A DNA stretch of 64,000 nucleotides, from the NCBI GenBank assembly GCA_963681505.1, contig OY811974.1:1943124-2007123 (forward strand). The letters are read 5' to 3'. This stretch comes from Eunapius fragilis. Its lineage: Eukaryota; Porifera; Demospongiae; Spongillida; Spongillidae. Both the position numbers and the translations under genes were made by a program. Each line of letters opens with the position of its first letter. Within the stretch, counting starts at the first letter, position 1. Shown here in pieces: positions 17,714-52,556 of this stretch. Under the pieces are notes generated by a model. That model worked only from the letters and a program-made list of their open reading frames with translations, did not search any database and was not told the origin of the DNA.

Positions 17714-18455
17714 GCCTATCGGAAGTCTCGCTAGAGACTTCCGTATAGGTTTTGACCCCGACTATGAATTAATTAAAATCCCGCGACCCTACCGTAGCTT
17801 CGCTCCCGACGATCGGATCGTCTAACTTATTGCGGCAATCGATCTAGATGTCAAAACTGAGTAGTTTCGTTTTTGTTTCGCGTCGTAGAACCGCGTGGTT
17901 GTCGAGAGCGAAAAATACTGCTGTCCTCGTTCCCCTTCCAAAAATAATGGGCGGGTCGTCTGCTTCTGCTTCTTCTTCTTCTTGGGAACTCATAACTCGG
18001 GACAGGAACACTTTTAAGCAATGAAAATTGCACCAATAGCTTTAGAATTTGCTGGAGGACTCGCTTTTAGGCTTTGATACACAAAAGCCTAAAAGCTTAT
18101 ATACGGTCTTATCAAGTCTAATTAAGCAAAAGTACCTATTTGGGTGTTTAAAAAAATTAAGGAAACAAGTAAATAAAAACATTCTCTCTGAGAAAGTTGG
18201 TGGGATATAGGTTTTGCAGGCAAATAGTATACTGATGTAAAAAGCAAGGAAACAAGTTTTATCAGAAGGGAAATGTAATAGTCCTATATTTAGCACAGAA
18301 ACAGCATATGCCTTAGTCGAAGTGTGCTAAATATAGGACTATTACATTTTCCCTTCTGATAAAACTTGTTTCCTTGCTTTTTACACCAGTATACTATTTG
18401 CCTGCAAAACCTATATCCCACCAACTTTCTCAGAGAGAATGTTTTTATTTACTTG
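17714..18455 (+). mobile_element. Composite double-hairpin element, copy A
   Basis: The element opens with a small hairpin (CCTATCGGAAGTCTC, loop GCTA, GAGACTTCCGTATAGG). A roughly 400-bp body follows, containing TCTTCTTCTTCTTGGGAACT and a stretch ending TAGCTTTAGAATTTGCTGGA. It closes with a near-perfect palindrome of about 290 bp (18167-18455) bounded by ACAAG and CTTGT. Copies B (45.4-46.3 kb) and C (51.6-52.6 kb) have the same order of parts, but both hairpins have changed sequence while staying paired. Copy A also carries a small hairpin at 18064-18097 (GCTTTTAGGC/GCCTAAAAGC). No protein is encoded. Confidence 0.75.
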
Positions 18456-18984
18456 TATAACATATAAATTGATATAATATAGCTAACGCAGACGATAAGG
18501 TCGGGCTAAGCCCAATTTAACAAAATTACAGTACCAAGTTTTTAGTGGTGAGAAACATCATGGTGAAACAACTGAATTGAGCAGAGGAGTAAGGTGAAAC
18601 CGATGAAAGAGAAGAACAAGATGAAATAGCAGAGATGTATGGAACAAAGTGAAGAGAAGTACAACGTGAAACAGGTGAGGCATAAACAGGGGAATGCACA
18701 ACAATTAACGTAAATTTAAGCAAGGAACTAGCGTATGAAATTTAAATTTGCATGATTAATACATGCGTACCAATTTCTTGCGTGACTATTTACATTAAAC
18801 TCACGCATATGAAACGCTAATACCGTTATACAAGTTATTTCCCCCGGATTTGTGCATATACATCTTTCAGTCACGTAACATGATTCATGCAAGGTGTCTG
18901 TCCGCGTCAACAACACTGCATGACTCTCAAAGACCTCTGCATCATACTTGCATGGTGTTGTTAAATGCCATCTCCCTCAACTCC

Positions 18985-19180
18985 CATCATTGCAATCGTC
19001 ATCCTTGCGACTGTTGTACTATACTTAGTCAGATTCAGCACTCCATTTTTGGACATGGGCACGAGACCGGCCAGGTGTTCAATGAGATTCAAGTGGGTAC
19101 GAAGGTCACACTGAAATGAGTTGTCCGATTGCATCAAGACATTCCTATACTATTTCCATACATCCTGTTGATTATCACGC
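18985..19180 (+). pseudogene. Remnant of the unknown gene's last exon
   Basis: GGTACGAAGGTCACACTGAA followed by ATGAG, TTGTCC and TTTCCATACATCC then GTTGATT aligns with the last exon and stop region of the gene at 14.4-15.1 kb. About 30 bp is deleted and the frame is broken by TGA. It lies just 3' of the functional Mask gene, in the position its intact counterpart holds relative to the broken Mask copy. Confidence 0.65.
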
Positions 19181-19445
19181 AACACTGCACTGTTACCTAA
19201 ATGATTACGCCAAAACCATTCTCCGACGGGACATTTTTGCATAACGATATAGTACAATCATTATTATATTGCATAAGTGTAGGCATGAATCGATAGTTCT
19301 AGCCACTTGATTACACATAATCACCTAACACAAAGCAGTGTCAGGGTTGCACAACCAAGCAACCTGGAGCGAAAAAAAAAAAAAAAAGGCAAACAGGGGT
19401 AGCAAATTATCAAGTGATCAGAAAAGACACGAGAGATCCTTCCTG

Positions 19446-19950
19446 TCATGATTGCTTGTGGTGTACCCCAGACAGAACAGGTTGAGAATTGTCCAAGTGA
19501 TCTGACTGACCCTCAGACGTAGGAGAAGACAGATTAGGGTTAGATGCTGATTCAATATCATCCAAAGGTTTTCGCCCCAAGGCATTTAGAAGCTTGATCC
19601 GTGGACCCTGCGGGAATCAAGGGGTTAATATCTGAATGCTTTACTAAAATTTAAATAATACCTTTGGTAGTTCAATTTCTGAGAAATCCTTTTCTTCCAT
19701 CAAAAGAAGGGCATCCAAGTCAATTTCATTGGACTGTAACATAAACCCTGAAACTGTGTTAAACATTTGAAACAAGAAGACATTACCTGAAAAAGTTGCA
19801 AGTACTTTGTCAGTGCCAATTTTTCCAGCACCGATTCCAAGTTATCCTGAGGAGAAATGGAAAGTTGCTCTGTGCCAGAGCTCAAATTTGGCCAGTCTGT
19901 CTGATCCGAGGAAACAGCAGCTTTAGACCAATCAGAATCACCAGAGGCAG
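19446..19950 (-). CDS. ANKHD1: Mask: C-terminal SAM domain
   Basis: Exons 19787-19950, 19662-19733 and 19446-19607 join in frame (phases 1, 0, 0) and end at TGA. The product reads DNLESVLEKLALTKYLQLFQ, then SNEIDLDALLLMEEKDFSEI, then ELPKGPRIKLLNALGRK, and a 36-residue tail. The spacing and residues are those of a SAM domain: L-x-x-L-x-L-x-x-Y, F-x-x-NEID, LL-x-L/M-x-E-x-D and G-x-R-x-K-L-L. SAM domains form homo- or hetero-oligomers. I know of no SAM in human ANKHD1/ANKRD17 or fly Mask, so this looks like a lineage-specific or ancestral addition. Confidence 0.85.
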
Positions 19951-20100
19951 CTACACAACAATAAACCATTATTAACTTAACACGACAACAGAAATAGTAA
20001 CAGAACAAATCATTACCAGAATGACTGCTGAAGCTCCACAGCTTGGATGGGTTGATACCTACAAGCAAAGAAGTCAGAACCATCGATAACAAACCACGTT

Positions 20101-20141
<41 letters not shown>

Positions 20142-23100
20142 AAAAAAAAACTCAGTGTACAAACCTTGTGCAATAACAGCAAAACCCGAATTGCCCCCAT
20201 AGTTGGCACTCCTCTTAGCCCTCTCAGTGCCAATGGGCAGCAACCCATCGGCCACCACGCCCCCATCGCTCATGTACTTCACCTCCGGCCCCCCGTAGGC
20301 AAAAGTCCCCTCCTCCCTGCCGGGCGGTGACGACTTCTCGGGTGGGCTGCAATTGGGCATGGGGCTCATCTGATGGGGCAGTGCGCTCAGCTGACCCAGG
20401 TTGATGGAGAACTGGCCCAGCAGGGCACCGGGGAGGTGGGACGACGATACCTCATAGTCAGCAGCCACCTGCTCCGCCTTGACAGGATACCCTAGGGGCA
20501 ACCCGTACTTGAACTCCGACCCCGGACTGGGCGCCGGACCCTGGATGAGGAGGGACTGCGTGGTGGTCGCCGCGGGCAACATGGCCGGCTCCATCGCGTA
20601 CGGATCCTTATAACCGGGCGCCGACTGGGCATGGAGGTCGGGGGGCGCCGTGCTGGAAGAGCGCAACGAACCAATCGGAAACGAAACGGGAGAGGACGTC
20701 GAGATCATCACGCCAGACGCAGCGAGTGCACCGTCGTAGGACTGGGTGTACGCTGCCGCCATCTGGCCCTGCCGTACCGGGATGGTCAGGGGTGCCACAG
20801 CGGGGGCTGGGTGACCCAACAGGGGCGGCGGGTTCAGAGGAGCCTGGTTGAGCGGGGGAGGGTTCCCGAGCAGGGACGGTTGCTGCTGCTGCTGTTGCTG
20901 CTGGTACAGACTCGGCTGCACTTGGGGACTGCCAAAGTTCGTGGTGCCGGGGAGCAGGCGGTAACTGCCGTACATGGACGCCGGGGCACTTCCCAGGAGA
21001 GAGCTGCCAACGCCAGAGGCCACAAACCCGGCAGTGGTAGGAAAGACAGGCGGGTTTCCGAGGATGGAACTGGTTGGGGGCTGTAGATAATGAAAGTGAA
21101 AGTGGTATTTTAAAACTTTGATTTAGCATGCATTCCCTTGTACATACATGCTTTATGACAATGCATGGTTTGCTGGGTAAAGGGTACTTACGTTGGAGGG
21201 GCCCTGCCTTGATGAAGAGCTGATCACCTGCTGTGTTGGAACGAATGACGGCGCATTGGGGTTAAATCCTTTGCCAGTTGGGTGAGGAGGGCTCTTATTA
21301 GGAGAGCTAGCGTTCTTGCTGTTTGATTCTGCAAATTTAAATTTAAAAAAACATTGAACAAGTAGAAAAAAAAATGCAGCAGAAAACAATAGTTGTGTAG
21401 GACGAACAGAGTGGGATGAAAGAGGGGTCTCAGTTGATGGACCATGCAACACAGGAGATAACAAGCATTCCACAAGCACCTTACCAGCTTGCACAAAGCT
21501 TGTAGGGTTGAAACCAGGCGGTGTAGCAAGAAGAGGTGGTCTCGGATTTCGCACGGGAGTAGGGACATGAGTCACAACAGCACCACTTCCCTGATCCCCC
21601 GTTGGCACGTCTGCGGGTTGAATGGGTTGGAACGCAGAACTGTAGAGCCCTGCATACACACACAAAAAACACATACAAATTGGATGGTGGGTAAGCAGAG
21701 AAATGACGTACGGAACAAAAGTTTCGCTGCTCTACAACATAGCATAAATAAGATTGCACATGCACTGGTCATCAGGTCCATAAGATAACACACAATATTA
21801 TGGACCTACTCAACAAGTGCTTTTAAATTGTACAGCACTCTCCAAATACTGCTCACAAATTATCAAAAGAATGCATTACCTATGACCACACACCCCTTTA
21901 CCCCACGCCCCTCACCCTTCTCCGGCCCAGGCAACAATGCTGGCGGAACAGGGCCGAGCAGTGGACTCTTCAGAGCAGGCGACGTATCATTCCGGTAAGG
22001 CGGATTGCTGAAGCCGGAGGTGGTGGGCGGGCTGGTCTTGCTGGAGGGCAACCCCGGGCTGAACGACGGCCCGGGTCTGGGCGTCCTACCGGGGGGTGGC
22101 CCAATGGGACCTAGCCCGGCAGTCAGGCCCTCATCCATTGGATAATCTACCACCTCATTCCACGGGTTCTGCTTGTGCTGCTGCTTCTCAAATGATGGGC
22201 TCTAAAAAAAATATTTATATTTAAAAAAGAGACAAGAGACAATAGTAACATTAATCACATGAATACAAAACAAGTCAGAGTGTACGACGCAACAACAGAC
22301 AATTGGCACACCACAAGCAAACTACCAACCTTCTCTGCCAGATCGGATACAATAGGCTTGGCACCAGGCGCAAGGTTCACCTTTGCCTGCATCCCCTGAC
22401 CTGCGCTGTCCGCTGGGGGCAAGCCGGGAGCACCAAACTGACCGGGCGCTACATTCGCCCAGCTCCCCGGGTCTGAAGGGGGCGGGGCCGGCTTCTTCCC
22501 GACCGCGTCAGAGTAGGTGGACTTCTTTTTCGGCTTGGTGAACTGGGCGGGCTCCTGGAAGATGGTGGGCGTCTTCAAGAGCTGCTGAAGGGGTTGCTCG
22601 ATGGCGGCCACTTGGGGAGCGGGAGGGAGAGGAGAGGGAAGGGGGAGAGGGTTTGGAGGAGAAAGAGGGCGGGACTCCACCTGCGACCCAATCACGCTCG
22701 AGTAGGTGGGCACAGAGACAGAGGGACCAGACGACGACCCCCCCACTCCCACCCCCACCCCCGTAGGGGGAAGAAGGGGAGGAGGCGGCTGCTTCGCTGC
22801 ACGCGTGCCAACTTCCCCGGCGACGTCGACCACCTTGGGTTTGGCCGCCTCGGTGGGTCTGGGCACCCCGGGGTGCTTCGCGGCCGAAGGCACGGCAAAC
22901 GCGGCCGGCTTGGTGGCGGAGGCAGTGGTGGAAGGCTTGCCTCCAGACGAGGAGGAGGAAGACAGAGACGAGACAGAGGTGGTTGCACCCTTGGAAGCTG
23001 CACTGGTCAAAGGTACTGCGGCCATCATCGTACTGGCCATGGCAGCGTTGCTGACCCCAGCCAGGACAGCAACCCCCGCAGACATGGGAGGAGCAACAAA

Positions 23101-26100
23101 CAGCTTCCTCGCGGCGGCTGGCATGCCAGCAGGCTTGTTGTTGGACGTAGCACTGCTGCCCCCACCACCACCACTGGGCCCTGATCCACCCCCGACAGTG
23201 CGGGTGTTGTTGTTACTGCCCAGGACCACCGCAGGCTTGGGCTCCATTTCTATGGCTGCAGTGGACTGGACCTGCTGTTGGACCTGACCCTTCCGAGCGG
23301 CTTTGGAGGAGGAGGAGGAGGAGGAGGCCTTCCCGCTGGCGGGGTGGGCGGAACCAGCCCCCCTGGCATTAGCTGCGGCCCCCAGCGGCAGGGACCCGGC
23401 TTTCTTCCCCGCTGCGGCCTTGGAAGGAAACGTGGCGGTCGCCGCTGCCGTCGTCGAAACGGAGGCGGTGAGCGTCGAGCTCGAATCGTTTGCGGGTAGC
23501 ATGTCCTCGGACACCGTCTGCGTCGATAGTAGCTCGTGGTTCACAGGGTGGCGATTTCCCATGCTGTTCATCGCCTTTGTTACCCCCTTTGGGAGGAGCT
23601 GGGACAGGTCCCTGTTGGGATCTTCAATGATGGCTGAGAGATACTGATGGGCTTGTTTGATGGCATCAGCAGAGCCTCTGCAAGTAGACAAGGGGGGGGG
23701 GGGGGGGGGGGAGAGTGTGAAAACATGTGCACAAGACACATACCCTTCCGCACTAAACCATGTCCAACTCCATTCCATTAACTGCCCCCCCCCCCTCCCC
23801 TCCAAAGCAAACATACACACAAAGTCGCACAGTGTAGCCCGCCAACCTGATTGTTAGGACTCTACTTGAGCCGTGCTTGTTGTGCTTGTCCACTTCAATC
23901 TGGGTGTTTGTGGCCATTTTGATGGCAGTGATGTTGCAACTACCTTTGCCAATGACTTGCAGAAATACTGCAGATGGAACGACTACCTTCTTCGTCCTTA
24001 AAGGAGGAAAAGAATCAACACTCATAAATCAATGTCAAAACACATCAGAAACGACATTAGCATTACATACATCGAATTAATACAATATACCATTAATAAG
24101 TGGGGAAAAAACAAAAAAACATTTTCTGCATCAGGCACTTAAAGCAAAGACCAGTGTAGCCTGGAAGAAGTTATATAGGAGCGTACAGTAATATATGATA
24201 TCCAGTTCAATCATAAGTAACAACTCTGCAATCAGACTAGCTAGTAAACCCTACGGCAACTCGGCTGACCTAAACAAACAGGTGTCAACATCGCATAAAC
24301 AAACACGTACCTTCGCCCAACTTCCTTCCAACCATCATCCTTCTTGTTCTTTCTTGGACTCACAGTGACACTGCCATTTCCAGCCAAAGACAAGGGCGAA
24401 CCAACCGAGAGAGACGCAACGCTGTTGGACAGAGGTACCCTGGGCTGCTTGTCTTTGTCCTTCCCCCTCTCCTTCCCCTGAGCAGCAGTCAGCGGCGAGG
24501 CCTTTCGCTGCTCAGTCGTGTCAACAACGCTGACCACAATGCCACTCTCAGCCGCGATGTACTTGGTGTTGTTGAACGGCGGCCTATCCATGTCTCCCTC
24601 ATCACCATCATTGCAATCGTCGTCCTCGCCATTATCACTGTTGGACTTATCCTTAGTCTGTCCCCTGCAAGACCAAAAGCACAAATAGTTATGTGTACCA
24701 GATCTACATACCACTTATGAGTATTGTCCCACATGTGACCCAGTATTGTACATACATTGTACTATCATAGAAAACCATAAGTAATTTAATACGTCACGCA
24801 CAAATATACATCTATATATGTGCACAGTGTGATGCAGTTCTCATATGACCAGGCTCACTTCTGAGCTGCCTTCTTCTCCTTTTGCCTCTTCTTTTTGGCT
24901 CTCTTTCGGGCAGCGGCAGCCTTGCGATCTTCCTCGTGTTTCTAGAAGGGAGAGGCTGAAGTTAAATGGACAGACCAGGCACACACCGGGGACACACCAG
25001 GCACACACCGGGGACACACCGGGGACACACCAGGCACACACCGGGGACACACCGGGGACACACCGGGGACACACCGTGGACACACCAGGGACACACCGTG
25101 GACAGACCAGTCACACACCGGGGACACACTGGGGACACACAAGCTACAGCCTTAAAACAGTAACTAAATCATAGGCAAAAACAGGAAAAGAAACACCGAA
25201 CGCCAAAAGGGAAATGAGGAAGTGGAAAACAGGCTTGGAAAGAGGAGGACAGGGACAAATGAAATGAATGGAGGACAGTTTTAAAGGAGACGTTAAAAGC
25301 AATCACTTTTTCAAGGTCCAGTTCTTGGAGCAGGATTGTTGCATTCTTGTTAGCTTCAGCCGCTTGCCTCTCCTTGGCATCAATTATCACATCCATGCAT
25401 CGCTGGCACTTCTTAAGCAGTTCCTGGTGAGAGAAAGACTTTTCATGGCAACTGAAGCAATCCGACACTTCTAGCAGCTAAGCAACTTAAACAAAAGAGT
25501 TGTAGTAATTAAGTGTTGCATTAACTATCAGCATATATGTAACTCAATGAAAATTATCATAGATTGCTCAAAAAGGTCTATCCTGATGGGCTGCAGCCAT
25601 TGTTCAACCACCACACACATGTACCCAACCGACATGTAGCTAACCTTATCAGAGAGAGTATTGATGTATCGGGTAAGATCTGCATCACTAGGAAACTGAG
25701 TGACATAATCCACCAAATACTTGATGACTTTGCTGTGTCCCTGCAAGAGAGAGATATAAGGCTCCAATAAAGAATGGACAACCGAATGCAGTGTTAATAT
25801 GATAGAACGCTCACATGTACACACACACACACACACAACTACTTCCTCACCTTTCTGAATGCTGCCATTAGACAAGAGACCTTCCTGTTGTCCTGACTAT
25901 CAACATCAGCGCCAGACTCATGCTCCACCAGCAGCCTAACCACATCAAGATGTCCACCTACACACACATACACACACACACACACCAAATCAATGCAGTA
26001 CACAACGCATGCAGCCCGCAATCTACACAGTAGACCATCCAGCTAAACCAAAGACGCTTGTAACAAATATGCACTTGCCATTGCAGGCCAGCCAAAGTGG

Positions 26101-26244
26101 GGAGTTCCCCTTCTTGTTCTTGACGTCGACGTGTGCCCCATGGGTGAGCAGCAGGTGGACAAACTTGCAGTGACCCTTGTCAGCAGCGATGGTCAGTGCG
26201 GTGTCCCGCGAGCTGGGCACAGGGGCAGCGTTGACATCTGCACC

Positions 26245-26315
<71 letters not shown>

Positions 26316-29044: not shown

Positions 29045-29119
<75 letters not shown>

Positions 29120-29510
29120 TTGCTCTGTGCTCCACGTTCGCCTGCCTCTCAACAAGAAGATTCACTACCTCATGCCTTCCCTGGAAGCATGCCAAAGTTA
29201 GCGCTGTGTTCCGATTGGTCTCAATCTGATAACAGAAAAATGAGATAATTCATATTCCGGCATGAATGTATAAATGAAGGAAAGTATGAAACTTTTGTAC
29301 CATTCACCCTTAGCCACTGCTTTGAAAATAACAGTGTGAAATTACTGAGCAAATGGATAATGCCATCAAAGATGATACCGACATTGCTAACCTACTACTA
29401 ACTGATCTAATAAGTCACCGTTTTCTGCTAGCAAACCCCCTCAACCTACATCTTCTCAATCAGACACACAAATACACACATGCACAAACGCATACACACA
29501 CATACATACA

Positions 29511-29558
<48 letters not shown>

Positions 29559-31218: not shown

Positions 31219-31262
<44 letters not shown>

Positions 31263-31991: not shown

Positions 31992-32035
<44 letters not shown>

Positions 32036-34052
32036 GATCCTTCCTCTTCCTCCAGATCTTCCTCTTCATCCTCCTCCTCATCCTCATCTTCGCCCTCAGA
32101 CGTGGGGTAGCTGTCGTTCTCCAATGTACTCCCCATGTAGCCAGAGGGTAACATGGCCGGAACCTGCAGGGATATATACACACACATGCATGCCAAGTCT
32201 TTCAACACCAAACGACTCAGCCCCTTCACACAAAAAAAAAAAAAAAAAAAAAAGACAACACCAAGCACTTGAAAGCAAACTAATGCCAACCGAACCCCCC
32301 CCCCCCCCACCCACCCCCATAACTCACATGATCCGATATCAGGTCGCTCGGCGGAGGAATATTGATGGGAAAGTTGCAGTCCTGCAGCAGGGCCCCGGGA
32401 AACGCCCGCTGTCCCTTGTGCGCCCTGTCCAATTCCAAACTGCTGTGGCCCTCGGCCGCCCGCTGCAGCGTGAGCTTCAGCGCGGCCTCCTCCCCAGGCG
32501 TCATGTCCCCCCTCTCGCAGGCCACCAGGCTCCTCGCCAGCTCCTCCAGGTTGGGGATGACGTGACCCTGCGATATGGCTGCCAGGTAGTTCTCAACGGC
32601 GACGCTCAGCGACACGGGAACACTGTCGAGTGCCGCGGGCGGCAACTTTCCCAGGTCGGCGCCCGTCAACACCGTTGGCGCGACCTGCGCAGACGACTGG
32701 GTGACGACAGTCTTAGGCTGGGCACCCTCTGGGGGGTGGTGGTGGTGGTGACCCCCCACTCTGGATGCAAGCGTCGTCTTCAGGTTGCCGAGGGCAAAGA
32801 TGTTCTGGGCCAGTGCCTGGGCCGACTCTGCGATGGACGCGCCCCCAACGCCTCCGGGCTGCTTGTTGGTCACGTTGCCATGACCACCAGCAGCGGCCGC
32901 CGCCTCCATCTGCTGCTGCTGCATGTAGTTCCTGATGATGATCTCGCTCTGGGTCAGACCTTGCTCGCCCCCCTGGGGGGCCCCCGCCACCCCCGCCGAA
33001 CCCCCTTCCCCTTTGACGTGTTGGTTGTTTCTCAACGTGGGCACAGAATCCGTCTGGTTGCTATGCTGCAGGTGTGGGCCGGACCCGGACGCCTGGGGGG
33101 GAGGAGGAGGAGGGGGCTGGACGCTGGCAGGGTCGCGTGAGGCCACCTCGGCGTGCCTCTGCGCGCTGGCTTCGGCGTCGGGCAGGTTGGGCTTGGCCAA
33201 ACCCACTTTCTGCTTCTCATGTCCACCACCACCAGCCACCACCTCCGGTCTCACGTCTGTACCTTGCTGGACGTGTTGTTTCAGGTTCGACGACGTCTCC
33301 GCCTCCGCAGCCCCGCCCCCACGCTGACCCGGGTCACTGTACGTCTTCCCCAGCACGACTTTGCCCTGGAACTTCTGCCCCGTCGCTGGGTGGGCGGCGG
33401 CTTCTTGGGTCCTGGGCTCCTCCTCCCCGCCCCCGCACTTGGTCACCGAGGCCACCCTGCTGCGCACGACGACATCAGAGGACTTGGGCTGACGCAAGAT
33501 GAGGCTGGCCACTGCAGTGTGTCCACCCCTAGCTGCCTCTACCAGCATGGTGGAGTTGTCCTACAACATAGGAAGGGAAGGAGTGTTCCCCCCCACAGCT
33601 TAAAAATTATTGCACTCCTACCCCTCCACACCACACATGCACCGCTATCCTTCCATAAAACCACACACATGCACCTGCCCCACACATGCATGCAAGCAAA
33701 CACAACACACACAAACACAACACACACAAACACACATACACACACAACACACACACACACACATACTTTAAGGATGTGCGCTGGGTCACTCCCCTGCATC
33801 AGCAGGTATTGCACCACACTAACGTGGCCGCCGGCGCAGGCTAGCGACAGCACAGAGTGGTCATTAGTGGCCGTGCGATGGTTAACACCAGCACCTAAAC
33901 AAGACAAGCAAGCACACCATCACACAATGTCAGCACACCTTGGAACCATAGAGGAAATGTTAGTTTTATGTTCTCCAATACGCTGCACCCTGTAACTACA
34001 CATCACGGACACTGATAACAATGTACAGTAAGCGAAGACAGATGACAGACGT

Positions 34053-34089
<37 letters not shown>

Positions 34090-35084: not shown

Positions 35085-35139
<55 letters not shown>

Positions 35140-40120: not shown

Positions 40121-40455
40121 TCGTCTTAAGGTCCGCTCTCTGACTCAACTGCTGTGTGATCCGTCTGCCTGTCACGAGGAAATTTGATCGGCGCTATTAT
40201 AGAATCGAAATACCGGTAACCTCATTCCACCATGTTGTCTATAAGGCCCGTCACGTGCCGCGCGTCAAATAGAGGCGACGTTTATTTTACCTCGTTCCCC
40301 ACCAGCTGCATCCTTCGACAGCTGAAACTAGTACTCAGTTAGCTCGGCGTTAATCTCGGTGAGCCACCATTAAGTAGCACGTTAAGGTTGTGAAATATGC
40401 TGCTTAACCCCTCCCCCCAGTTTGGACTGGTAACTTGGTTTTTTTAAAAAGGGTC
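40121..40455. promoter_or_regulatory. Divergent promoter between Mask and GPD1
   Basis: Only 335 bp separate the two start codons, which point away from each other, so both promoters and 5' leaders must lie here unless upstream non-coding exons exist. No TATA box is obvious. The element GTCACGTG near 40,250 is an E-box-like core in a GC-rich patch (GCCGCGCGTC). TATA-less divergent arrangement suits two broadly expressed genes. Confidence 0.6.
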
Positions 40456-43400: not shown

Positions 43401-44660
43401 TGAGTCTCGCCTTCTTTCTTGCTACAGAATATCGTTGCCCTCGCAGCTGGAATATCTGATGGACTGGGGTAAGTATGTATGTAAACCATCCGCTCCCACC
43501 ACCAGGGCTGTTCTGATTATTGGCTATTAACCAAGATCACCATTTACGGTAGTTTTTCATGTTTTCAAAAAAGTATTATTATCTGAGCATCCAAAATTGA
43601 ACCATACATTATATAGGGTACGATTGAGGCAGCGAAAGCATATTATAAAAACTTTCCAGGAGCGTGAAAGTGCAATAAAAATGTACGCGTAATTAAAATT
43701 TCATGCCATTGTAATTCCTTGATCGACAGTCTGATAGTTGTAAAGGATATAGGTGTAGGTCTTGGAATATGATATAATTATATTTTCCTCAGCAAGCCCA
43801 ATAAAAAGACATTAGATTAGTGCATTTCCTCCTTTTAAGTGTTATGTTTTATATTAATCCTGAGGTTTTTGATTGGCTCCTTCTCCTGTGTGTAGCTACG
43901 GGGCCAGCACTAAGGCAGCCATACTCCGCATCGGACTAGCGGAGATGCACAAGTTTGCCAGTGCCTACTACCATGGAGTGGAGCTGTCCACCTTCATGGA
44001 GAGCTGCGGTGTAGCTGACCTCATTGCCACGTGCTACGGGGGTAGGAACAGGAGGGTCGCCGAGGCATTTGTTAAGACAGGAAAGGTGGGGGCACTCTTA
44101 AGGCTTTCCTGCAAAGGCAACCAGACTGGTCTGCATGGGTGGTCAGTGAATAGGGCCTTTGCTAGTGTGGAAAATGTCTTCAGCATGTTGATGAGTTCAT
44201 ATATTCACTGTTTAGAACTGCATTGTATTAACTTATTGTGTTTATTTCTGAACAGTCTATCGACGTGCTTGAAGCAGAGATGTTGAATGGACAGAAGCTC
44301 CAGGGTCCCCACACTGCACACGAGCTCAGCACCATCTTGAAGAAGGAAGGAAAGGAAGCAGAGTGAGTCATTTGGCCGATCAATCTGGTGATGATGATGT
44401 GCAATTGGTTAAATGATATTGTGCAATTTTGAAGTGTTATCTCTACATGTAGACAGGGCAGCGTAGGTAGTGTTTGGCACCCGGTGGGTAATTATTTCAA
44501 GGGAACATAGTTACATTGAACTATACTTACTGCTTCCTAAGACAACCCACAAGGGGGGGGGGGGTGGCTTTTATCCTTATTTAAATATTGAAACACCTTC
44601 TTGTAGGCTCTGTGTTGTTGAAAGTGTGCTTGCAAGCCATTCCTCACTGCTGACTGACTA

Positions 44661-44708
<48 letters not shown>

Positions 44709-44968
44709 ACTCACTCACTCACTCACCCCAAAAACTGGGTTTAGTCACTCACCCCAAAAACTGGGTTTAGTCATTAAAATAGCTTGCACCGGTCAAAAAG
44801 TAGGTAGTGGAAAATGTGGGGTTTTATTTTCCATATGTATGCTTGACAGCATGCAGTTAGTCTGTTGTATTGTTCTTTTGTAGGTACCCTCTCTTCACTG
44901 CTGTTCACAAGATCTGCTTCGAGGGGGTACCCCCTCAAGACCTGCTGAAGTTGTTGGCTAAACTGTAG
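40456..44968 (+). CDS. GPD1: Glycerol-3-phosphate dehydrogenase, NAD-dependent, cytosolic
   Basis: Ten exons encode 348 residues: 40456-40508, 40754-40931, 41566-41634, 41901-41972, 42153-42291, 42975-43087, 43428-43468, 43896-44085, 44256-44362 and 44884-44968. All junctions are GT-AG and phase-consistent, and the length equals the family norm (human GPD1 349). The enzyme reduces dihydroxyacetone phosphate to glycerol-3-phosphate with NADH, linking glycolysis, lipid synthesis and the glycerophosphate shuttle. Visible motifs are the Rossmann loop [15 protein letters not shown] near residue 10, the lysine ending ISLIK (about residue 124), CGALK with the second lysine at about 208, and [20 protein letters not shown] with the substrate-phosphate-binding arginine. 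The end LLAKL carries no peroxisomal signal. Starts 335 bp from Mask in divergent orientation. Exon 5 has a duplicate (next entry). Confidence 0.96.
42353..42512 (+). CDS. GPD1: Duplicated GPD1 exon 5 (candidate alternative exon)
   Basis: About 120 bp downstream of exon 5 lies a second copy, including the donor G/GTGAGTTC. Translated it reads [20 protein letters not shown] then [20 protein letters not shown], against [13 protein letters not shown] and [10 protein letters not shown] in the first copy. Many differences are synonymous (for example CTGGTTTCTCAC versus TTGGTATCGCAC) and the frame is intact. With acceptor AACACAAACAG at 42,352 it is phase 0 to 1, exactly as exon 5, so it can replace exon 5 but cannot follow it in frame. 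The acceptor region is purine-rich and would add about seven residues (QRTTKPA), which is a weakness. Confidence 0.7.
43626..43765. mobile_element. Decayed MITE of the GGCAGCGAAA family (copy 3)
   Basis: It starts GAGGCAGCGAAAGCATATTA and continues in inverse orientation to copies 1 and 2 (TTTCCAGGAGCGTG, TACGCGTAATT, GATCGACAGTCTGAT). The far end is lost. It lies in GPD1 intron 7. Confidence 0.7.
44665..44770. repeat. (TC)n then (CTCA)n microsatellite and 26-bp duplication
   Basis: A TC run gives way to CTCA units. Then CACCCCAAAAACTGGGTTTA plus GTCACT occurs twice in tandem. All of it is in GPD1 intron 9. Confidence 0.85.
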
Positions 44969-45357
44969 GGCTGTACATCTCCCTTGTTCCCCCTCCTCCT
45001 CCCCCCCCCCCTCCCCTTCCCCCTTTTTAGGCTAGGAGCATGTCGGTGCATTGATCTTCTCGCCTCCGTGTGTATGTATCCGCTGCTTATATCGTACTTG
45101 CACATTTTCCCTTGAAGCTGAAAATCCTTACACAACGTTGATAAGATGGTGGGCTTGCAGCATGCATCAAAGTATGATTGGTCCGCCGCATACATGTAGG
45201 CCTGGTACCGATAAATATGTAAATAACTGGACGTTCCATATAATGACCCGCGATGTAATAACCTTACGTTCCGTAAGGATATTAATCTATGGTGTAATGT
45301 ACTATGTACCTCCAGAGATCTCTTCACGCATGGACCGTATATGCCACTTATATAGAT

Positions 45358-46275
45358 ACAAGTAAAGAAAAACATTTTCTAACGAGAAAGTTGGTGGGAT
45401 ATAGGAATTGGAGGCAAAGGTGGTGTAAAAAGGAAGGGAACAAGGTTTTTGGAAAAGAAAAATGAGACAAAAATCCTATATTTAGCACTTCTTTTGTTCT
45501 GTTATATATACATGTGTTAAATATAGGATTTTTGTCTAATTTTTCTTTTCCAAAAACCTTGTAACCTTCCTTTTTACACCATCTTTGCCTCCAATTCCTA
45601 TATCCCACCAACTTTCTCGTTAGAGAATGTTTTTCTTTACTTGTTTCCTCTATTTTTTTATTATCATATTTTATCGATTATTAATACTGCCCCCCCATTA
45701 CAATTACCGTCACGAGCAGACGTCCGCTTTTGTTTGGGATTGGGATCACTGTAAGGAACGCGGGAGAATTCTAACTCGTCGGTCTCGTTGTTTAGCTTTC
45801 CCAGAGATAATATATATATTATCTCTGGCTTTCCTTATTTGTTTGCACAATTCTAAATATACGTAAATGTCGCCACGGGAACGCTTCTATATAACACTAC
45901 GCATTACGTATGATTACGTATGTCAGTTTATTCATGAAGATGTCCTTCCACAGCGATTGGTATAATTGGCGCTCTTTAAAACCATTCCTATCCGGAGTTA
46001 TACTCACCCGAGAAGAAGACGACGACGTTGACGACCGAGAAGATTTGGCCTGGGGACGAGGTAAAGCACGAACTTTTTTGTTCTCTTAAAGCAAACAGTT
46101 CGAAGACTGGAATAAAACATTAAAATGACCGTCTTTGCCTTCTGGTTCGATAGCAACAAAGAGCAACACTATCCGTTTCTCGGTACGCGAGTTATACGCG
46201 GGTCGCGTTTACTATTTCACGACCCGGGTCAATTCCTATATAGGAACTACTATCGTAGTTCCCGATAATTATTAA
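45358..46275 (-). mobile_element. Composite double-hairpin element, copy B
   Basis: Inverse orientation to copies A and C. It starts with the long palindrome 45358-45644 (ACAAGTAAAGAAAAACATT to its complement; loop near 45,490-45,520). The body then includes ACCGTCACGAGCAGACGTCC, GAATTCTAACTCGTCGGTC, TATAACTCCGGATAGG-type and GCAAACAGTTCGAAGACTGG. It ends with the short hairpin GGAACTACTATCGTAGTTCC at 46243-46262. It lies just upstream of the oxidase gene. An extra palindrome, CCAGAGATAATATATATTAT followed by CTCTGG (45,799-45,826), sits in its body and is missing from copy C, so it is a nested insertion. Confidence 0.85.
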
Positions 46276-46353
46276 TTGCACGTTTAATAAAAGTAAAGAT
46301 CACAGAAAGCGTGTACACAGCAATAGGGCAAAGTGTTCTGCGTAGCCATAGCG

Positions 46354-47367
46354 ATGTCGAAGGCTAAGGTTGCTGTCATCGGTGCCGGTGTGATAGGCCT
46401 TTCGGTTGGCGTGCGTCTGCTGGAGTCACGTGATGAATTGGAAGTCACCATTGTTGCGGAGAAGTTCCACCCCAATATCACGAGCAATGGAGCCGGCGGC
46501 TTTGTGTACCCCGACGCGGCATCGGAGGACGAACGTGTGCTGGCCACCATGAGGTACCTGCGGGAGTTGCAATCGTCGGGGTTGGCGGAGGAGGCCGGCG
46601 TGAGCCTCGTTCCCACCTTCTTGTATTTCTCGACCCCTCAGGAGCGTCCTTGGTGGGCAGGGGCGGTCGCAGAGTTCGAAATGCTGACCCGGCTCGAGGC
46701 CGCGCAACGTGGTCTACGATCGGAGCCGTACGAGGTGGTGTTCAGTTTCAGGTCGTACGTGGTGGAGCCGAAGAAGTACCTCCCGTGGCTGATGTCGAAA
46801 TTTCAAAAGCTCGGCGGGAAATTCGAGCAGAGGCGGGTCACGGCGATGGAGCAGCTGGCGGGACACGGATTGGTGGTCAACTGCGCCGGGCTGGGCGCGG
46901 GCGAGCTAACGGGCGACCGGGCCTTGTACCCGGTAAGGGGTCAGATAGTGGCCGTGAGAGTACCCTCTGCCTCCCCGCTCAGAGGGCGCCCTGAGATCCA
47001 CGCGTGGGACCCGGAGGTGGGGGAGGAGCTCACCTACGTCATCCCTCATAGCGACGTCACGCTGCTGGGCGGGTGCAGGAACCATGGCAGCTGGTCCCAG
47101 GTCCCCGATGCCCAGCAGACGGATGCGATTTACGGACAATGCCTCCGGCTTGTGCCCGCGTTGGAAGGTTCGGAGATAGTCGAGACGTGGGCTTGCCTGC
47201 GACCGATGAGGAGTGGCGTCCGTCTGGAGTTTGAGTGGGCGTCGCCTTCGCTTCCTGTTGTCCACTGCTACGGGCATGGTGGGCGTGGTTACATTCTCCA
47301 TTGGGGTTGTGCCATAAAAGTGCAGGAACTGGTTGAAGAATTTTTGAAAGGGAAAGGGATTATATAA
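46354..47367 (+). CDS. D-amino-acid / D-aspartate oxidase (FAD-dependent)
   Basis: A single uninterrupted exon encodes 337 residues, the usual family length (about 340-350). The enzyme oxidatively deaminates D-amino acids to 2-oxo acids, ammonia and hydrogen peroxide. Motifs are the N-terminal FAD-binding GAGVIGLSVG, NGAGGFVYPDAAS, VNCAGLGAGELTGD, RPMRSGVRLEFE and the C-terminal flavin loop HCYGHGGRGYILHWGCA. The start is the ATG before SKAKVAVIGAG. Upstream in-frame codons lack another ATG. The C-terminus ends KGKGII, not the SKL-type peroxisomal signal usual for DAO/DDO, so its location is uncertain. Which substrate class it prefers cannot be told from sequence alone. Unlike its neighbours it has no introns and is GC-rich, which could mean retrocopy origin or transfer, but the frame is fully intact. 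Confidence 0.92.
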   Translation: MSKAKVAVIGAGVIGLSVGVRLLESRDELEVTIVAEKFHPNITSNGAGGFVYPDAASEDERVLATMRYLRELQSSGLAEEAGVSLVPTFLYFSTPQERPWWAGAVAEFEMLTRLEAAQRGLRSEPYEVVFSFRSYVVEPKKYLPWLMSKFQKLGGKFEQRRVTAMEQLAGHGLVVNCAGLGAGELTGDRALYPVRGQIVAVRVPSASPLRGRPEIHAWDPEVGEELTYVIPHSDVTLLGGCRNHGSWSQVPDAQQTDAIYGQCLRLVPALEGSEIVETWACLRPMRSGVRLEFEWASPSLPVVHCYGHGGRGYILHWGCAIKVQELVEEFLKGKGII

Positions 47368-47489
47368 GTGTCTGTGTCTTGTCCTTCAATTTGCCTTCAG
47401 AATCAACCTATTTTTGCAATTGGCATTGTTAACATTTATTTGCTGTGTAGATTTTGATCTCCTCAGAGTGCGCTAAAGCCAAATGTAAG

Positions 47490-47562
47490 CTGTTTATTAA
47501 CCCCAAAAGGCTGTGGCGGGTTCACCCGGGAAGGTAGCCGAGCAGCTTGGCAGCTTGTTGCA
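47490..47562 (-). pseudogene. Inverted fragment of the MNS1-like exon
   Basis: GGTAGCCGAGCAGCTTGGCA with flanks CCCCAAAAGGCTGTGGCGGG is the near-exact reverse complement of 48,390-48,458, including the donor-side intron. About 70 bp are copied in inverted orientation 0.8 kb upstream. Confidence 0.85.
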
Positions 47563-47952
47563 CACACATACGTTGAGTAAGTGAGGTACTGCATTCTAAG
47601 CAGGGAAGTAATGGTACTGGTGAGGTTGTGCATTCCTTGTCCCCCCTCAAGGCTGCCCCAGAGGCTGGATCTCCAACATGCACAAATCTCAGCTTTATAG
47701 TTGTAAACGTAGATCTACCTCATGCTTACACTTCAAAAAGGCATGTATGTTCATTTCTGTTTTTATTTTTTATTTTTAAAAAGCAACTTTTATTCTTTCC
47801 AATCAGGAGTGTGCCACTGATCAAGATGCAAGACAACAAGGGGTCAACTACAGAAGTACTTTTCATCATAACATGCTATAGGTGTATGTTACTATGGTGA
47901 TGAACGACTGCACCCCTCCCAATAAACCAGGAGCAAGAGATGGAGGAGTAAC

Positions 47953-48119
47953 ATGATGGCCAAACTGGCAGAGGACGACAGGATTGAGCAGATGAACGCA
48001 CAGAAGAGATGCATGAAGCAATTGGAGCTGCACCAGAAAGCAGTCATTGAGCAAAGAAGGCAACTGTATCAGAAACAGAAGGTTGTGTGTGTGTGTTCTG
48101 TGCGTATGTGTGTGTGCGT

Positions 48120-48168
<49 letters not shown>

Positions 48169-48587
48169 GGATATGTGTGTATATGTGTGTGTTGTGGATT
48201 TTATGTGCATGGGTAGATGTGTTTAGTTATAAGTATTGCATGGGAATATAAGGTTACATGGTGATGAATGACCACACCCCCTCCCAATACACCAGGAGCA
48301 AGAGATGGAGGAGTACCGGGAGGAGCAGCAGAGGGAGGCCGTGCGACAGTCCATTGTGGAGCAGGAGAGGCAGAGGTTGCTCAGGGAGCACGCTGCCAAG
48401 CTGCTCGGCTACCTTCCCAGGGTGAGCCCGCCACAGCCTTTTGGGGCTAACAAACATGTTACCATTTGGAGTGTGGTGTGCCTTTTCCCATTAGCGTGTG
48501 CTGGGGGATAAAAGGGACCTGGAGATGCTGGGAGATAGCTTCAAAGATGCTTACTCAAAGAAACGTGACATGTTTGATGACCTCTGA
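47953..48587 (+). pseudogene. Truncated MNS1-like (trichohyalin-plectin-homology) gene, 3' end only
   Basis: Three exons, 47953-48081, 48296-48421 and 48495-48587, join in frame. They give a charged coiled coil: MMAKLAEDDRIEQMNAQKR..., EQEMEEYREEQQREAVRQSI ..., LLREHAAKLLGYLPR, then DMFDDL and stop. The LLxEHAxxLLGYLP ending and the heptad helix are typical of TPH proteins such as MNS1, an axonemal microtubule inner protein. The 5' two-thirds is missing. Just upstream, 47,902-47,950 repeats the intron end and first codons of the second exon (AGGAGCAAGAGATGGAGGAG), but the next codon is TAA instead of TAC. The donor of the first exon runs into a (GT)n tract. I read it as a broken or partly duplicated gene, although a short expressed peptide cannot be excluded. 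Confidence 0.65.
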
Positions 48588-49031
48588 TGTCTTCCACTGG
48601 CTACCAGCTGGTTCATAACTGGGTCACTGTCTGTTCATTTCATTTGTAATGGGTACTACTAAGCACCTTTCAGTTAGCAATCAGGACCATTTTAATTGAT
48701 GATTGTTAATAACTACAACTTGTCATTTTGAATGAGAGCTCTACATTCTGATCCATTGCAGTTTACAAGTAATTGGGGTAGCAACAGTCCCCATTGTCAC
48801 AACTGGGGTGAGGAAGCTATGTGACATAGGTCAAACTCATTAGTGAATCTTACATATGACATCTAATTTGATGAGAGCAAATGCCCTTTCTCAAGGTGTA
48901 ATGCTAAACCTTCCTGACACCTACAGCTAGTACATTGGGCAATCTGTGTGGTCTATTATGTGAGGAATGAGAGCAATTTATACCATGCAATAAACATACA
49001 AATTACTACAGGTCAGTTACTTATACGTAGG

Positions 49032-49265
49032 TCACTCGTTCACAGCTATGATCTCATCTGCTAACACATGGAGGCTGGATTCTCTGAGAACACTCACCAG
49101 TGTGCTCCATGAAACTGGAGTTCTGCCCACCCTTTTAAGCCACTTTGTAAATATTGCTTTGGTGATGTCTTCAGCTTTTGCCTCCTGATTAAGTGCATCC
49201 ACTAGTTGTCCAGTGCCATCATTGAGGAGGAATGTACCAAGGGTGGGGTAGTTGGTACCTATCCT
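49032..49265 (-). CDS. Death-domain exon (3' exon of a partly recognised gene)
   Basis: The minus strand encodes RIGTNYPTLGTFLLNDGTGQ then LVDALNQ, KAIFTKWLKRVGRTPVSWST and LVSVLRESSLHVLADEIIAV, ending at TGA. The pattern (LGTFLLND, WL-x-G-x-G-x-x-PVTW-x-TLV-x-VLR, LADDI) is that of the death-like domain found in large numbers in sponge genomes, usually as the last exon of small predicted proteins. Such domains form helical bundles that bind each other in innate-immune or apoptotic signalling. The acceptor is probably TCATTCAG before AGGATAGG (49265). The frame stays open to about 49,314 upstream. I could not find the 5' exons between 49.4 and 50.4 kb with confidence, so the gene may be partial. 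Confidence 0.7.
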   Translation of the reverse strand, partial: RIGTNYPTLGTFLLNDGTGQLVDALNQEAKAEDITKAIFTKWLKRVGRTPVSWSTLVSVLRESSLHVLADEIIAVNE

Positions 49266-49629
49266 CTGAATGATGTTGATACCGAAACGCAAAGTCTCCC
49301 GTTTAAGTCCATGGAATTTATGTGAGGTGGTCCAGTACATACAACACACACCAGACCAGTACATTCAATACATCAGCCCAGTACAACACCGGCACCGGCA
49401 TATTAAAAAAAAAAAAAAAAACAATCCTATGCGTTAATGAAAACAATCAAATACTATACATGCGTTTTCAATGTACAAACGTTTATGGATGTCCGAAATT
49501 GCTGGAAACCAGGGCATGGCGTGGAATGGAAGGCCATCCTTACGACCAATCTCAATGCGAAGGAAAGGATACGTTTGGATTGCTACGAGCGCTCATCACA
49601 CCCGCTAAGTTGGTGGACACATAGATATC

Positions 49630-49720
49630 ATAATATAGGAGAGGGATTGGAAACCGAGGCAATCAACACCAATCAACGCGCGAAGTTCTGGTGCCCAGGC
49701 CATTCTTGATTAAAATGGCT
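49630..49720. repeat. Short dispersed repeat (partner at 52,930-53,030)
   Basis: GGATTGGAAACCGAGGCAAT and GGTGCCCAGGCCATT recur in diverged inverted form near 52,945-53,020 (ATTGCCTCCGTTTCTAATCC). Probably ends of one MITE family. Confidence 0.55.
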
Positions 49721-50459
49721 AGCTGTTTCAGAGATCATATATAGATGATCTCTGGCTGTTTCAACAGCTGTCGTTTCGGTTTGGCTGAGAATAGCGAACT
49801 AACAAAAATATACGGTGCTTAGAAAGCAGAATTTGCACACTGTCCCTTGCAATCTTCTTGTGCTTTGTGCGACAAGTCAACTTGAACTTATGTTGACTTG
49901 CGTTGTACATCCTGCCAAAAGATAATTAGTCACTTCAGACGAGATCTGTACAGATTAACCCGTGTTTTTATTGACTACAAAACCAGCCAGTGGCATGTAT
50001 AAATGATCTGACTATAGCGTGCACTAGTCAATTCATAGATTGTAGTAAGCGTGTAGCCACTACACCGGTAAGTATACGAGGAGGTCAAATCCGGTTTTTG
50101 TCATTTTCCCCGTCTATTAATGAAAATCTTATCTCCAAAACAACCCTGTGGCACGTATTTATTTTAGCTCTATCATACTGTACTATAGAATTACCTTCTT
50201 CTTCTAACCAGTTGCACCGGAAAGTCTCAACTTGTGTGTCGTCCGCCAGTCGTAAAAAAACTGCGGTATGATTCGCTCTGTTAACGTGAAAGTTAGCTTT
50301 TTGGAATCCACTTCCACTTACCAAGATCTACCAGGTACATGTACTGCTCTTAAGGGGGAGAGGCACGAATTAACAACTAATTAGCAACTTCACGGAGTGC
50401 ACGCTCAAGTCTCCGCACAAATGTATAGCTCACGTGCGCCGTTTCCAATCCCTCTCCTT

Positions 50460-50735
50460 TAGAGCTCTTTCATCGCATAACTTAATAGCATTCATCTTCT
50501 AATTAGTCCGCCATATTGGTGCTCGGAGAAGTATGGGATTACTTCAGAGTGTTGTTTAAATATATATTATTGTGGTCTAACACATGACTAACATTTGTAA
50601 AAATACTTGTGCCCTCGGAGCGCGAGTTATACGTATCAAAAGTACCAAAACTAAATTTCCGAGCACCAATATGGCGGACAATAAAGCAATTAAAGCCCAC
50701 GCGTCATGTGACCATGAAAGAGCTCTATACTATTT
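50460..50735. mobile_element. Foldback element around TATGGCGGAC
   Basis: The left arm 50465-50531 (GCTCTTTCATCGCATAA to CCGCCATATTGGTGCTCGGA) pairs with the right arm 50656-50725 (TCCGAGCACCAATATGGCGG to CATGAAAGAGC). A unique loop of about 120 bp lies between. No ORF. Confidence 0.75.
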
Positions 50736-50763
50736 ATGGTGGACAAGACGAACTGACGACAGC

Positions 50764-51130
50764 AGAGGCGGATCCAGGGGGGGGGGGGGGTTTGGGGGTT
50801 GCAACCCCCCGGCCGGCCCTTTCATATATGGTAACGCCCCCTCTTCTGCTAACCAGCCCCTCCCCCTTCCCCGCTTTTTGTATCGGGCCTGAAGCGCCGG
50901 ACAGCACCCCCTCCGCTTTTCGTAAATGGACAGCACCCCCCCCCCCCCCCCCCCCCCCCCCGCTTTTCGTATCGGGCCTGAAGCGGGCAGCACCCCCCCC
51001 CCCCCCCCCCCCCCAGCTTTTCGTGTCAGGTCTAAAGCGGACAGCACCCCCACCCCACCCCCCCCCCGCATTTCGTATCGCGGGTCTCAACCCCCCCTTT
51101 TGGAAAACCCTGTATCCGCCCCTGGACAGC
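50764..51130. mobile_element. hAT-like MITE with C-tract repeats
   Basis: The ends AGAGGCGGATCCAGGGGG and TATCCGCCCCTGG form the (CAG)RGGCGGATCCAGG-type terminal inverted repeats often seen in hAT-family MITEs. Inside, GCTTTTCGTATCGGGCCTGA plus AGC and a C run are repeated three to four times. No convincing target-site duplication could be read, so family placement is tentative. Similar ends are seen at 51,567 and 56,096. Confidence 0.6.
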
Positions 51131-51420
51131 GTTAACATTCAAAGCCCTCGTCTATGTGTAGTAACCATATATGGGCGACGCACATCGAACTTCGAACGTT
51201 AACAGGGCTGAAAACGAGGGACGTACGCCTATAGCTCCCAACACCACCACCCCTCCCCCTCACCATGATGCCATATTACTAGCTGACACGCTACAATGGA
51301 TTACATATCTCTAGGCAACATGCAGATAGATGTCCACGAATTTGCCAATAGTGCAGACCCTTCTATCTAACTTGCAGTGATGTAATCCATCGCGTACTTA
51401 GATCTGGGGCCGAGGCTAAC

Positions 51421-51472
51421 GCACACACACGCACACGCACACACACACACACACATACACACACACACACAC

Positions 51473-51543
<71 letters not shown>

Positions 51544-51545
51544 TG
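51421..51545. repeat. (CA)n microsatellite
   Basis: About 60 CA units with a few CACG and CATA interruptions. Confidence 0.95.
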
Positions 51546-51604
51546 GCACGCACACATGTCTGTGGCAGATCCAGGGGGGGGGTCCAGCCCCCTCGAACCT
51601 GAAT

Positions 51605-52556
51605 ATGAATCAGGAACCACGATAGTAGTTCCTGTGTAGGAATTGACCTGGGTCGTGAATATCATTTTTAAAACGCGACCCGCGTATAACTCGCTTACCG
51701 AGAAACGGATAGTGTTGCTCTTTGTTGCTATCGAACCAGAAGGCAAAGACGGTCATTTAAATGTTTTATTTCAGTCTTCGAACTGTTTGCTTTAAGAGAA
51801 CCAGAAGGCAAAGACGGTCATTTAAATGTTTTATTCCAGTCTTCGAACTGTTTGCTTTAAGAGAACAAAAAAGTTCGTGTTTTACCACGTCCCCAGGCCA
51901 AATCTTCTCGGTCGTCAACGTCGTCGTCGTCTTCTTCTCGGGTGGGTATAACTCCGGATAGGAATGGTTTTAAAGAGCGCCAATTATACCAATCGCTTTA
52001 GAATCTCCTGGAAGGACATCTTCAAGTATCAGATGTATGAATAAAGCATAAAACTGACATACGTAATCATTACGTAATGTAATAATCTCATGGCGACATT
52101 GATAGAATTGTGCAAACAAAAGAGGAAAGCTAAACAACGAGACCGACGAGTTAGAATTCTCCCGCGTTCCTTACAGTGATCCCAACCAAAAGCGGACGTC
52201 TGCTCGTGACGGTAATTGTAACGGGGGTTGGGGGGCACTTGGCAGTATTAATAATCGATAAAAAATGATAATAAAAAAATACAAGTAAAGAAAAACATTC
52301 TCTAACGAGAAAGTTGGTGGGATATAGGAATTGGAGGCAAAGATGGTGTAAAAAGGAAGGGAACAAGGTTTTTGGAAAAGAAAAATGAGACAAAAATCCT
52401 ATATTTAGCACATGTACATGTAACAGAACAAAAGAATAGGATTTTTGTCTCATTTTTCTTTTCCAAAAACCTTGTTCCCTTCCTTTTTACACCACCTTTG
52501 CCTCCAATTTCTATATCCCACCAACTTTCTCGTTAGAGAATGTTTTTCTTTACTTG
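51605..52556 (+). mobile_element. Composite double-hairpin element, copy C
   Basis: The short hairpin GGAACCACGATAGTAGTTCC opens it at about 51,611. The body matches copy B in reverse (ACGCGACCCGCGTATAACTC, CGAACTGTTTGCTTTAAGAG, TATAACTCCGGATAGGAATG). The long palindrome at 52281-52556 closes it. A 68-bp block starting GAACCAGAAGGCAAAGACGG is tandemly duplicated at about 51,733-51,868 here and single in copy B. No protein is encoded. Confidence 0.85.

Follow-up and report, generated by a model that had tools for sequence, protein, structure and literature searches.

Helitron-like elements with a long 3' palindrome in Eunapius fragilis: evidence for occasional copying between the palindrome arms

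A stretch of 64,000 nucleotides of the Eunapius fragilis genome (C4:1,943,124-2,007,123, hereafter the window) contains three copies, A, B and C, of a transposon with hairpins at its ends, and part of a further one, D. These are probably non-autonomous, Helitron-like rolling-circle elements (D in truncated form), in which the arms of a long 3' hairpin are occasionally recopied and then decay independently. An earlier note on the window had described A, B and C as one kind of transposon with a hairpin at each end. They do form one kind, but the two ends turned out to be unlike structures, and the rolling-circle character of the element had not been recognised. The note had also left it open whether selection for structure or copying-based repair keeps the hairpin arms matched. 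For the long palindrome the evidence, which comes from sequence comparisons, favours occasional arm copying with later decay over selection alone. For genome-wide comparison 219 Mb in 24 contigs were searched.

Element ends, insertion site and autonomous relatives

The small hairpin, body and long palindrome described earlier were all found in A, B and C, both by reading and with a program that located inverted repeats, and the element ends were set by comparing copies elsewhere in the genome. Element A lies on the plus strand at 17,719-18,455, starts with TC, ends with CTTG and is flanked by A (17718) and T (18456). Its 5' hairpin, GGAAGTCTC GCTA GAGACTTCC (17,721-17,742), is followed at element nt 25 by the 5' copy of an asymmetric repeat (17,743-17,754), which reads GTATAGGTTTTG here and ATATAGGTTTTG in other A copies. 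The 3' palindrome of A comprises 292 bp including the flanking T (18,165-18,456), with ACAAG as inner boundary and CTTG, followed by T, as outer terminus. Element B (minus strand, 45,359-46,265) is a non-autonomous element of family B with the same plan, a 287-bp palindrome including the flanking T (45,358-45,644) and the 5' hairpin GGGAACTAC GATA GTAGTTCCT with one G-T pair (46,242-46,263). Element C (plus strand, 51,610-52,556) likewise belongs to family B. It has an internal duplication in the body and a 277-bp palindrome including the flanking T (52,281-52,557), from one side of which loop-side arm sequence is gone; its 5' hairpin, AGGAACCAC GATA GTAGTTCCT (51,612-51,633), carries one uncompensated change. 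The palindrome scan additionally revealed D (minus strand, 60,529-60,818), which the earlier note had missed. It is the 3' palindrome of an element from a fourth family, to which the autonomous L064/L067/L068 described below also belongs; no 5' end of D was found, and the element is truncated. The body side of D extends rightward, toward a Ty3/gypsy-type pol open reading frame (ORF). As single-stranded DNA, the palindromes of A and D fold with -148.4 kcal/mol (shuffles -24.0; z -34.8) and -121.1 kcal/mol (shuffles -19.7; z -26.2), respectively.

The plan shared by the families consists of a 5' TC with a 9-bp hairpin and a 3' palindrome of 277-303 bp bounded by CTTG and its inverted copy. That the small hairpin and the palindrome might be unrelated neighbours, a possibility raised in the earlier note, does not agree with the genomic copies: the 742-bp A query is matched over almost its full length at about 40 places, and the B query is likewise matched at most of the 30 B loci. 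Since the two structures thus occur in the same order in tens of copies, they belong together. The 26-bp 3' end gave 2,680 + 2,669 genomic matches with ≤3 mismatches (reversed control 0 + 0), and a stricter pattern of one body flank and both palindrome edges gave 302 + 323 (control 0 + 0), with at least one match among those listed not being a palindrome by its letters.

When ends were counted in the fetched loci, A preceded TC in 36 of 37 and T followed CTTG in 40 of 40. Together with one empty site, these counts place the insertion between A and T, without target-site duplication. At the empty site, the flanks GTTGGTGGGATA and TAGGAATTTGAGG of the element L065/L066 rejoin, GTTGGTGGGATA being directly followed by TAGGAATTTGAGG, as the arm of a family-B palindrome; compared with L061, this arm is missing 10 bp further out. 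The mapping of exact ends and target duplications proposed in the earlier note has thus yielded TC...CTTG ends and an A-T insertion site with no duplication at L065/L066. In A, B, C, L065/L066 and the aligned representatives the 3' end is CTTG and not the CTRR of canonical Helitron1. At L011:684-2413 two B elements stand head to head, their 5' ends separated by a few tens of bases.

The Helitron_like_N profile had 91 matches in the genome. Around Rep matches, seven 10-kb and three shorter pieces of sequence were retrieved, which covers 7 of the 91 at length; the first five of the seven were picked from the strongest-match group, which includes the Helraiser-like L061. An autonomous element of family E (L065/L066, C2:2,479,311-2,492,879, 13,569 bp) has an ORF of 1,955 aa, the 5' end TC-GAGAGTTAC-GTTA-GTAACTCTC and a 295-bp 3' palindrome, and is inserted in the arm of a family-B palindrome; by the empty site, ORF and ends are one element. 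For family D, an ORF of 1,979 aa and the ends of L064/L067/L068 (about 10.4 kb; 5' TC-AGGACCTAC-GTTA-GTAGGTCCT, 303-bp 3' palindrome) appear to constitute one element, as judged from matching end words. Both the L064 and the L065 ORF contain Helitron_like_N (PF14214; E 3.3e-26 and 3.4e-24, respectively), PIF1-type helicase (PF05970; E 4.3e-21 and 1.6e-22) and OTU domains in Pfam, and no endonuclease Pfam family was detected in these two scanned ORFs at E 0.01. The L065 protein had no match in viral contigs. Given the shared end plan, we infer that A and B owe their movement to Rep-helicase-OTU proteins of this type.

Helraiser-like Helitrons (L061, L062 and kin) were considered as partners of the palindrome elements and rejected: they have ends of their own, TCTAATAC... 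and a hairpin with CTAG, and merely adjoin the palindromes (L061) or sit inside them (L062). L061, the Helitron1 of this genome, matched Helraiser (7lcc) with 1,232 bits over 1,184 aa; the L065 protein reached 91 bits, its best stretch lying in the helicase. At L061:1903-3160 the Helraiser-like 5' end (TCTAATAC) starts at the T directly after the CTTG of a B element, and at L062:3807-9442 a Helraiser-like Helitron lies within a family-A palindrome. Upstream of the Rep-helicase ORF, both kinds of Helitron have another ORF, whose product contains tandem repeats of charged peptides (by ORF reading, all on the minus strand: L065:8479-9093, L064:8834-9601 and L061:7111-9012).

Covariation, arm symmetry and loop orientation

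In five families (A, A2, B, D and E) a 9-bp 5' stem with a 4-nt loop, GNTA, stands directly after TC. Over 12 distinct rows from these families 97.2% of the cells were paired and 7 of the 9 pairs varied on both sides (4.6 in shuffles, with 11 of 500 as high; ≤2 in slid controls), in line with the earlier observation that the small-hairpin arms had changed together. The number of further pair types does not distinguish the hairpin from shuffles (11 versus 10.6; 279 of 500 as high). For the 5' hairpin, this covariation cannot separate selection from copying. A 12-13-bp word that begins at nt 25, just past the 5' hairpin, is found again in all five families 36-41 bp from the 3' terminus. The match is clearly best within the family for A and B (12 letters, ≤9 elsewhere); A2 and E have a word in common, and the 5' end of D also matches the E palindrome by 12 letters. 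Between the 3' word and the terminus a short hairpin (TTCTC...GAGAA) is clear in A, A2, B and E, not in D.

The 3' palindromes were aligned arm by arm, using six representatives and a second D copy. The two arms of one copy were 95.7-99.3% identical and single arms of different families 60-92% (values that include a few loop bases), as expected from the earlier description of palindromes almost perfect inside copies and divergent between families. Differences between families were mostly mirrored in the two arms. Between A and B1 this applied to 24 of the 29 columns with substitutions and to 11 of the 11 with indels, between A2 and E to 15 of 18 and 8 of 8, and between A and the autonomous D to 36 of 37 and 31 of 37. 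Independent compensation can hardly account for multi-base insertions that occur in both arms. All aligned representatives have an inverted copy of the terminal word at the inner boundary of the palindrome.

Within family B, 25 palindromes passed the scan (from 24 of the 30 B loci and L061), and 22 of them were usable for counting changes in the arms, which were trimmed of loop bases. Excluded from the arm counts in families A and B were L028, L036 and L037 with damaged arms, a 214-bp palindrome at L062:155-368, palindromes of the A2, D and L066 types as members of other families, and the window duplicates of L001, L009 and L036. The 22 palindromes contained 70 cells changed alike in both arms, 92 changed in one arm and 2 changed differently. 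The 70 symmetric cells compare with a mean of 24.7 and a maximum of 47 in 500 re-pairings of arms among copies, and with about 1.6 under independence. Alleles present in ≥4 copies were symmetric in 57 and one-armed in 9 of 66 cells, whereas private changes were symmetric in 7 and one-armed in 51 of 58. Independent, uncompensated arm mutations, which the earlier note had named as contrary evidence, are therefore common among private changes and rare among widely shared ones. Since shared changes are mostly symmetric and private ones mostly one-armed, the arms seem to become alike between element generations and to decay separately afterwards. Of the 9 widely shared one-arm cells, 7 represent a single loop-side change. 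L012, L013 and L022 have bodies that are 97% alike (L013 versus the other two), and their palindromes and loops are of different subtypes, a hint that palindromes may have been exchanged between elements.

Loops were found in both orientations in B, A2 and D, that is, in three of the four families with more than one readable copy. Among the 30 B loci 26 loops were forward, 3 inverted (L011, L014 and L038) and 1 undetermined. The A2 loops of L019 and L062 were opposite, the orientation of L062:652-937 being set from its 5' hairpin. In family D the autonomous copy was oriented one way, and the D palindrome of the window and a fragment in L002 the other, an adjacent 3-bp asymmetry being inverted along with the loop. 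Two palindromes with an uncertain body side were left out of the tally, the second one of L028 and the Helitron-interrupted A palindrome of L062. The latter is flanked by body-like sequence both left and right; should the left side be the body, its loop is inverted relative to L001. Of the six copies closest in body sequence to each of L011, L014 and L038, 5, 4 and 4, respectively, were forward. These mostly forward relatives and the different loop subtype of L011 suggest that more than one inversion event took place. At one locus, a complex place (C4:2,733,801-2,735,040), matches to the plus strand (query 5-425 and 425-742) and to the minus strand (query 4-742) share one palindrome in an arrangement that, by match coordinates only, resembles an inverted dimer.

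Occasional copying of the arms and alternative explanations

In rolling-circle transposition the strand would be single-stranded for a time, and its 3' end could fold as a long hairpin marking the terminus. Now and then one arm would be resynthesised on the other, or the arms would exchange; this would make changes, insertions included, symmetric and could invert the loop. Once inserted, the arms would decay independently. The mirrored indels and the inverted loops suggest that an arm is sometimes copied from its partner. Unequal flip numbers and an inherited one-arm change, in turn, argue that such copying is only occasional. The copying step may belong to rolling-circle replication, to nicking at the mirrored inner terminus in the manner of adeno-associated virus (AAV) or to host recombination.

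Several results weigh against occasional arm copying in elements of this kind. The scan demands ACAAG/CTTGT and a good outer match, which favours intact arms, and 6 of the 30 B loci (L010, L016, L020, L027, L032 and L034) had no palindrome that passed it. Each of the 7 B copies with the shared loop-side change has it in a single arm (6 in the inner, 1 in the outer arm), showing that arms can be inherited uncopied. In family A (8 copies), 3 symmetric and 17 one-arm changes were found, all private; as many as 3 symmetric changes also arose in at least one of the 500 shuffles. The symmetry of indels is incomplete (10 of 12 columns for A-B2 and 0 of 2 for B1-B2, besides one-arm deletions in the D palindrome of the window). 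Inversion is infrequent in B (3 of 29 readable copies) and absent from A, where 9 of 9 copies read forward; thus, loop inversion is not part of every cycle. Host recombination between the arms could likewise invert loops. Finally, the 7 of 91 Rep matches fetched at length included no autonomous element with the ends of A or B.

If selection acted alone, the transposase would need both hairpins and each mutation in one arm would be compensated independently in the other. The pairing statistics of the 5' hairpin, including its slid controls, would fit such selection, as would the compensatory 5'-hairpin changes described for Helitron2 (PMC3627910; here and below, statements on published systems refer to excerpts of the papers cited), and for this short hairpin selection may still be right. 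The mirrored multi-base insertions and inverted loops of the 3' palindrome, however, point to copying, as do the mirrored private changes (7 of 58 in B and 3 of 20 in A), so that selection as the only cause appears quite improbable. Host recombination or gene conversion between the chromosomal arms might instead homogenise them and flip the loops, transposition only multiplying the outcome. The inversions look indeed sporadic, given the mostly forward relatives of flipped B copies, and gene conversion between arms has been described for X-chromosome palindromes (PMC8981503). Yet the predominance of one-armed private changes in B implies that inserted copies are not quickly homogenised. Arms of about 130 bp are, moreover, short for homologous recombination, and we regard this explanation as possible but would not expect it to hold.

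In an AAV-like terminal resolution, Rep would nick one strand between CTTG and T at the outer end of the palindrome and the other strand at the mirrored inner boundary, and the palindrome would be a self-priming or closed hairpin copied in every round. The inverted terminal word at the inner boundary, the two loop orientations and the dimer-like locus are what such a process could leave, and in AAV, flip/flop inverted terminal repeats (ITRs) and repeats that alternate are interpreted as signs of rolling-hairpin replication (PMC11575299). Against copying in every round stand the very unequal orientations (inverted loops in 3 of the 29 readable B copies and in none of the 9 A copies), the one-armed change carried by 7 B copies and the fact that the dimer-like arrangement is a single, complex locus known from match coordinates; we therefore consider it unlikely. 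A foldback transposon with terminal inverted repeats, or a chance neighbourhood of small hairpin and palindrome, might be suspected from the strong fold-back and the hairpin at each end. The constant order in tens of copies, the lack of a target duplication at the empty site, the unlike ends and the Rep-helicase of the autonomous relatives make either hardly conceivable, and the foldback transposon was rejected on the last three of these grounds.

Genomic surroundings and relation to known elements

Other features of the window include an ORF of 961 aa (61,105-63,987, minus strand), in which a domain search identified reverse transcriptase, RNase H and integrase, and an ORF with an FAD-dependent oxidoreductase domain, with the 5' end of B situated 68 bp upstream (the two together occupy 46,265-47,367). 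A different inverted-repeat element of about 1.65 kb (55,348-56,998) has arms that are 93-96% complementary and ends near GGGTCTGGGGACGAGACTA, and another imperfect palindrome with 120-bp arms (92%) is formed at 16,424-17,050 around a short repeat of the kind GGTGGGGTAGATAGTAGGTAGGATAG. ORFs at 32,280-33,548 (minus strand) and nearby we take, by eye, to resemble an ankyrin-repeat/KH protein; Pfam gave no match for the ORFs tested there.

Judged by sequence, the end plan is Helitron-like and closest to that of Helitron2. Helitron2, including FoHeli of Fusarium oxysporum, also has hairpins at both ends and an asymmetric inverted repeat of 8-15 bp, the 3' copy of which lies upstream of the 3' hairpin (PMC3627910, PMC5148889); the repeat measures 12-13 bp here. 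Its 3' copy is located about 20-30 bp (PMC3627910) or, in FoHeli, 38-51 bp from the end (PMC5148889), compared to 36-41 bp here. FoHeli1/2 start with TCAG (PMC5148889), similar to the 5' end here, and the compensatory change in the 5' hairpin is a further likeness (PMC3627910). Two hairpins, short asymmetric repeats and compensatory 5'-hairpin changes were thus already known from Helitron2 (PMC3627910, PMC5148889). The published 5' copy is part of the 5' hairpin and stands 0-2 bp from the end (PMC3627910), whereas the copy described here follows the hairpin at nt 25 in 5 of 5 families. The present elements further differ from Helitron2 in the near-perfect 3' palindrome of 277-303 bp, whose inner edge mirrors the terminus, in the many indels mirrored between arms, in the inverted loops of some copies and in the insertion between A and T. 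Among the matches listed in a search of the literature on Helitrons, whose coverage left out most subscription papers, there was no 3' palindrome of about 290 bp with mirrored terminus, mirrored indels and loop inversion, and PMC3573991 contains none of the terms looked for.

With canonical Helitron1 (Helraiser/Helibat) the elements share the 5' TC, the A-T target, the lack of duplication, the Rep-helicase and a hairpin upstream of the 3' end, which in Helraiser acts as terminator (PMC4778049). They differ from it in the 3' CTTG instead of CTRR, in the 9-bp 5' hairpin present in five families and in the low score of the L065 protein against Helraiser as compared to the Helitron1 of the same genome. 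Helentrons, HINE and DINE-1 resemble the elements in that non-autonomous copies are numerous, inverted repeats of about 12 bp occur subterminally and palindromes lie near the ends, and OTU, present in our autonomous ORFs, is reported for that clade (PMC4067079); here, in contrast, the two scanned ORFs contain no endonuclease domain, the target is A-T and not TT, and the 3' palindrome is much longer. AAV ITRs are similar in the long terminal hairpin, the Rep protein, the two loop orientations and possibly the inverted dimers (PMC11575299). Here, however, one long hairpin exists, at the 3' end only, and its orientations are very unequal; homology of the DNA is not claimed.

A further reading, tentative and rather doubtful in our estimate, would see the 3' palindrome as a working replication hairpin: Rep would cut the outer end between CTTG and T and the other strand at the mirrored inner edge, and a fold-back, self-primed stage would recopy an arm, flip the loop and sometimes produce inverted dimers. 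If true, this would join Helitron rolling-circle replication and parvovirus-like rolling-hairpin replication in one eukaryotic transposon. The elements bear on the question of how Helitrons end replication and keep their hairpins intact. They offer a natural record in high copy number, in which copying leaves readable marks, namely mirrored indels and loop orientation, so that selection versus copying becomes countable, and the autonomous relatives are supplied for testing.

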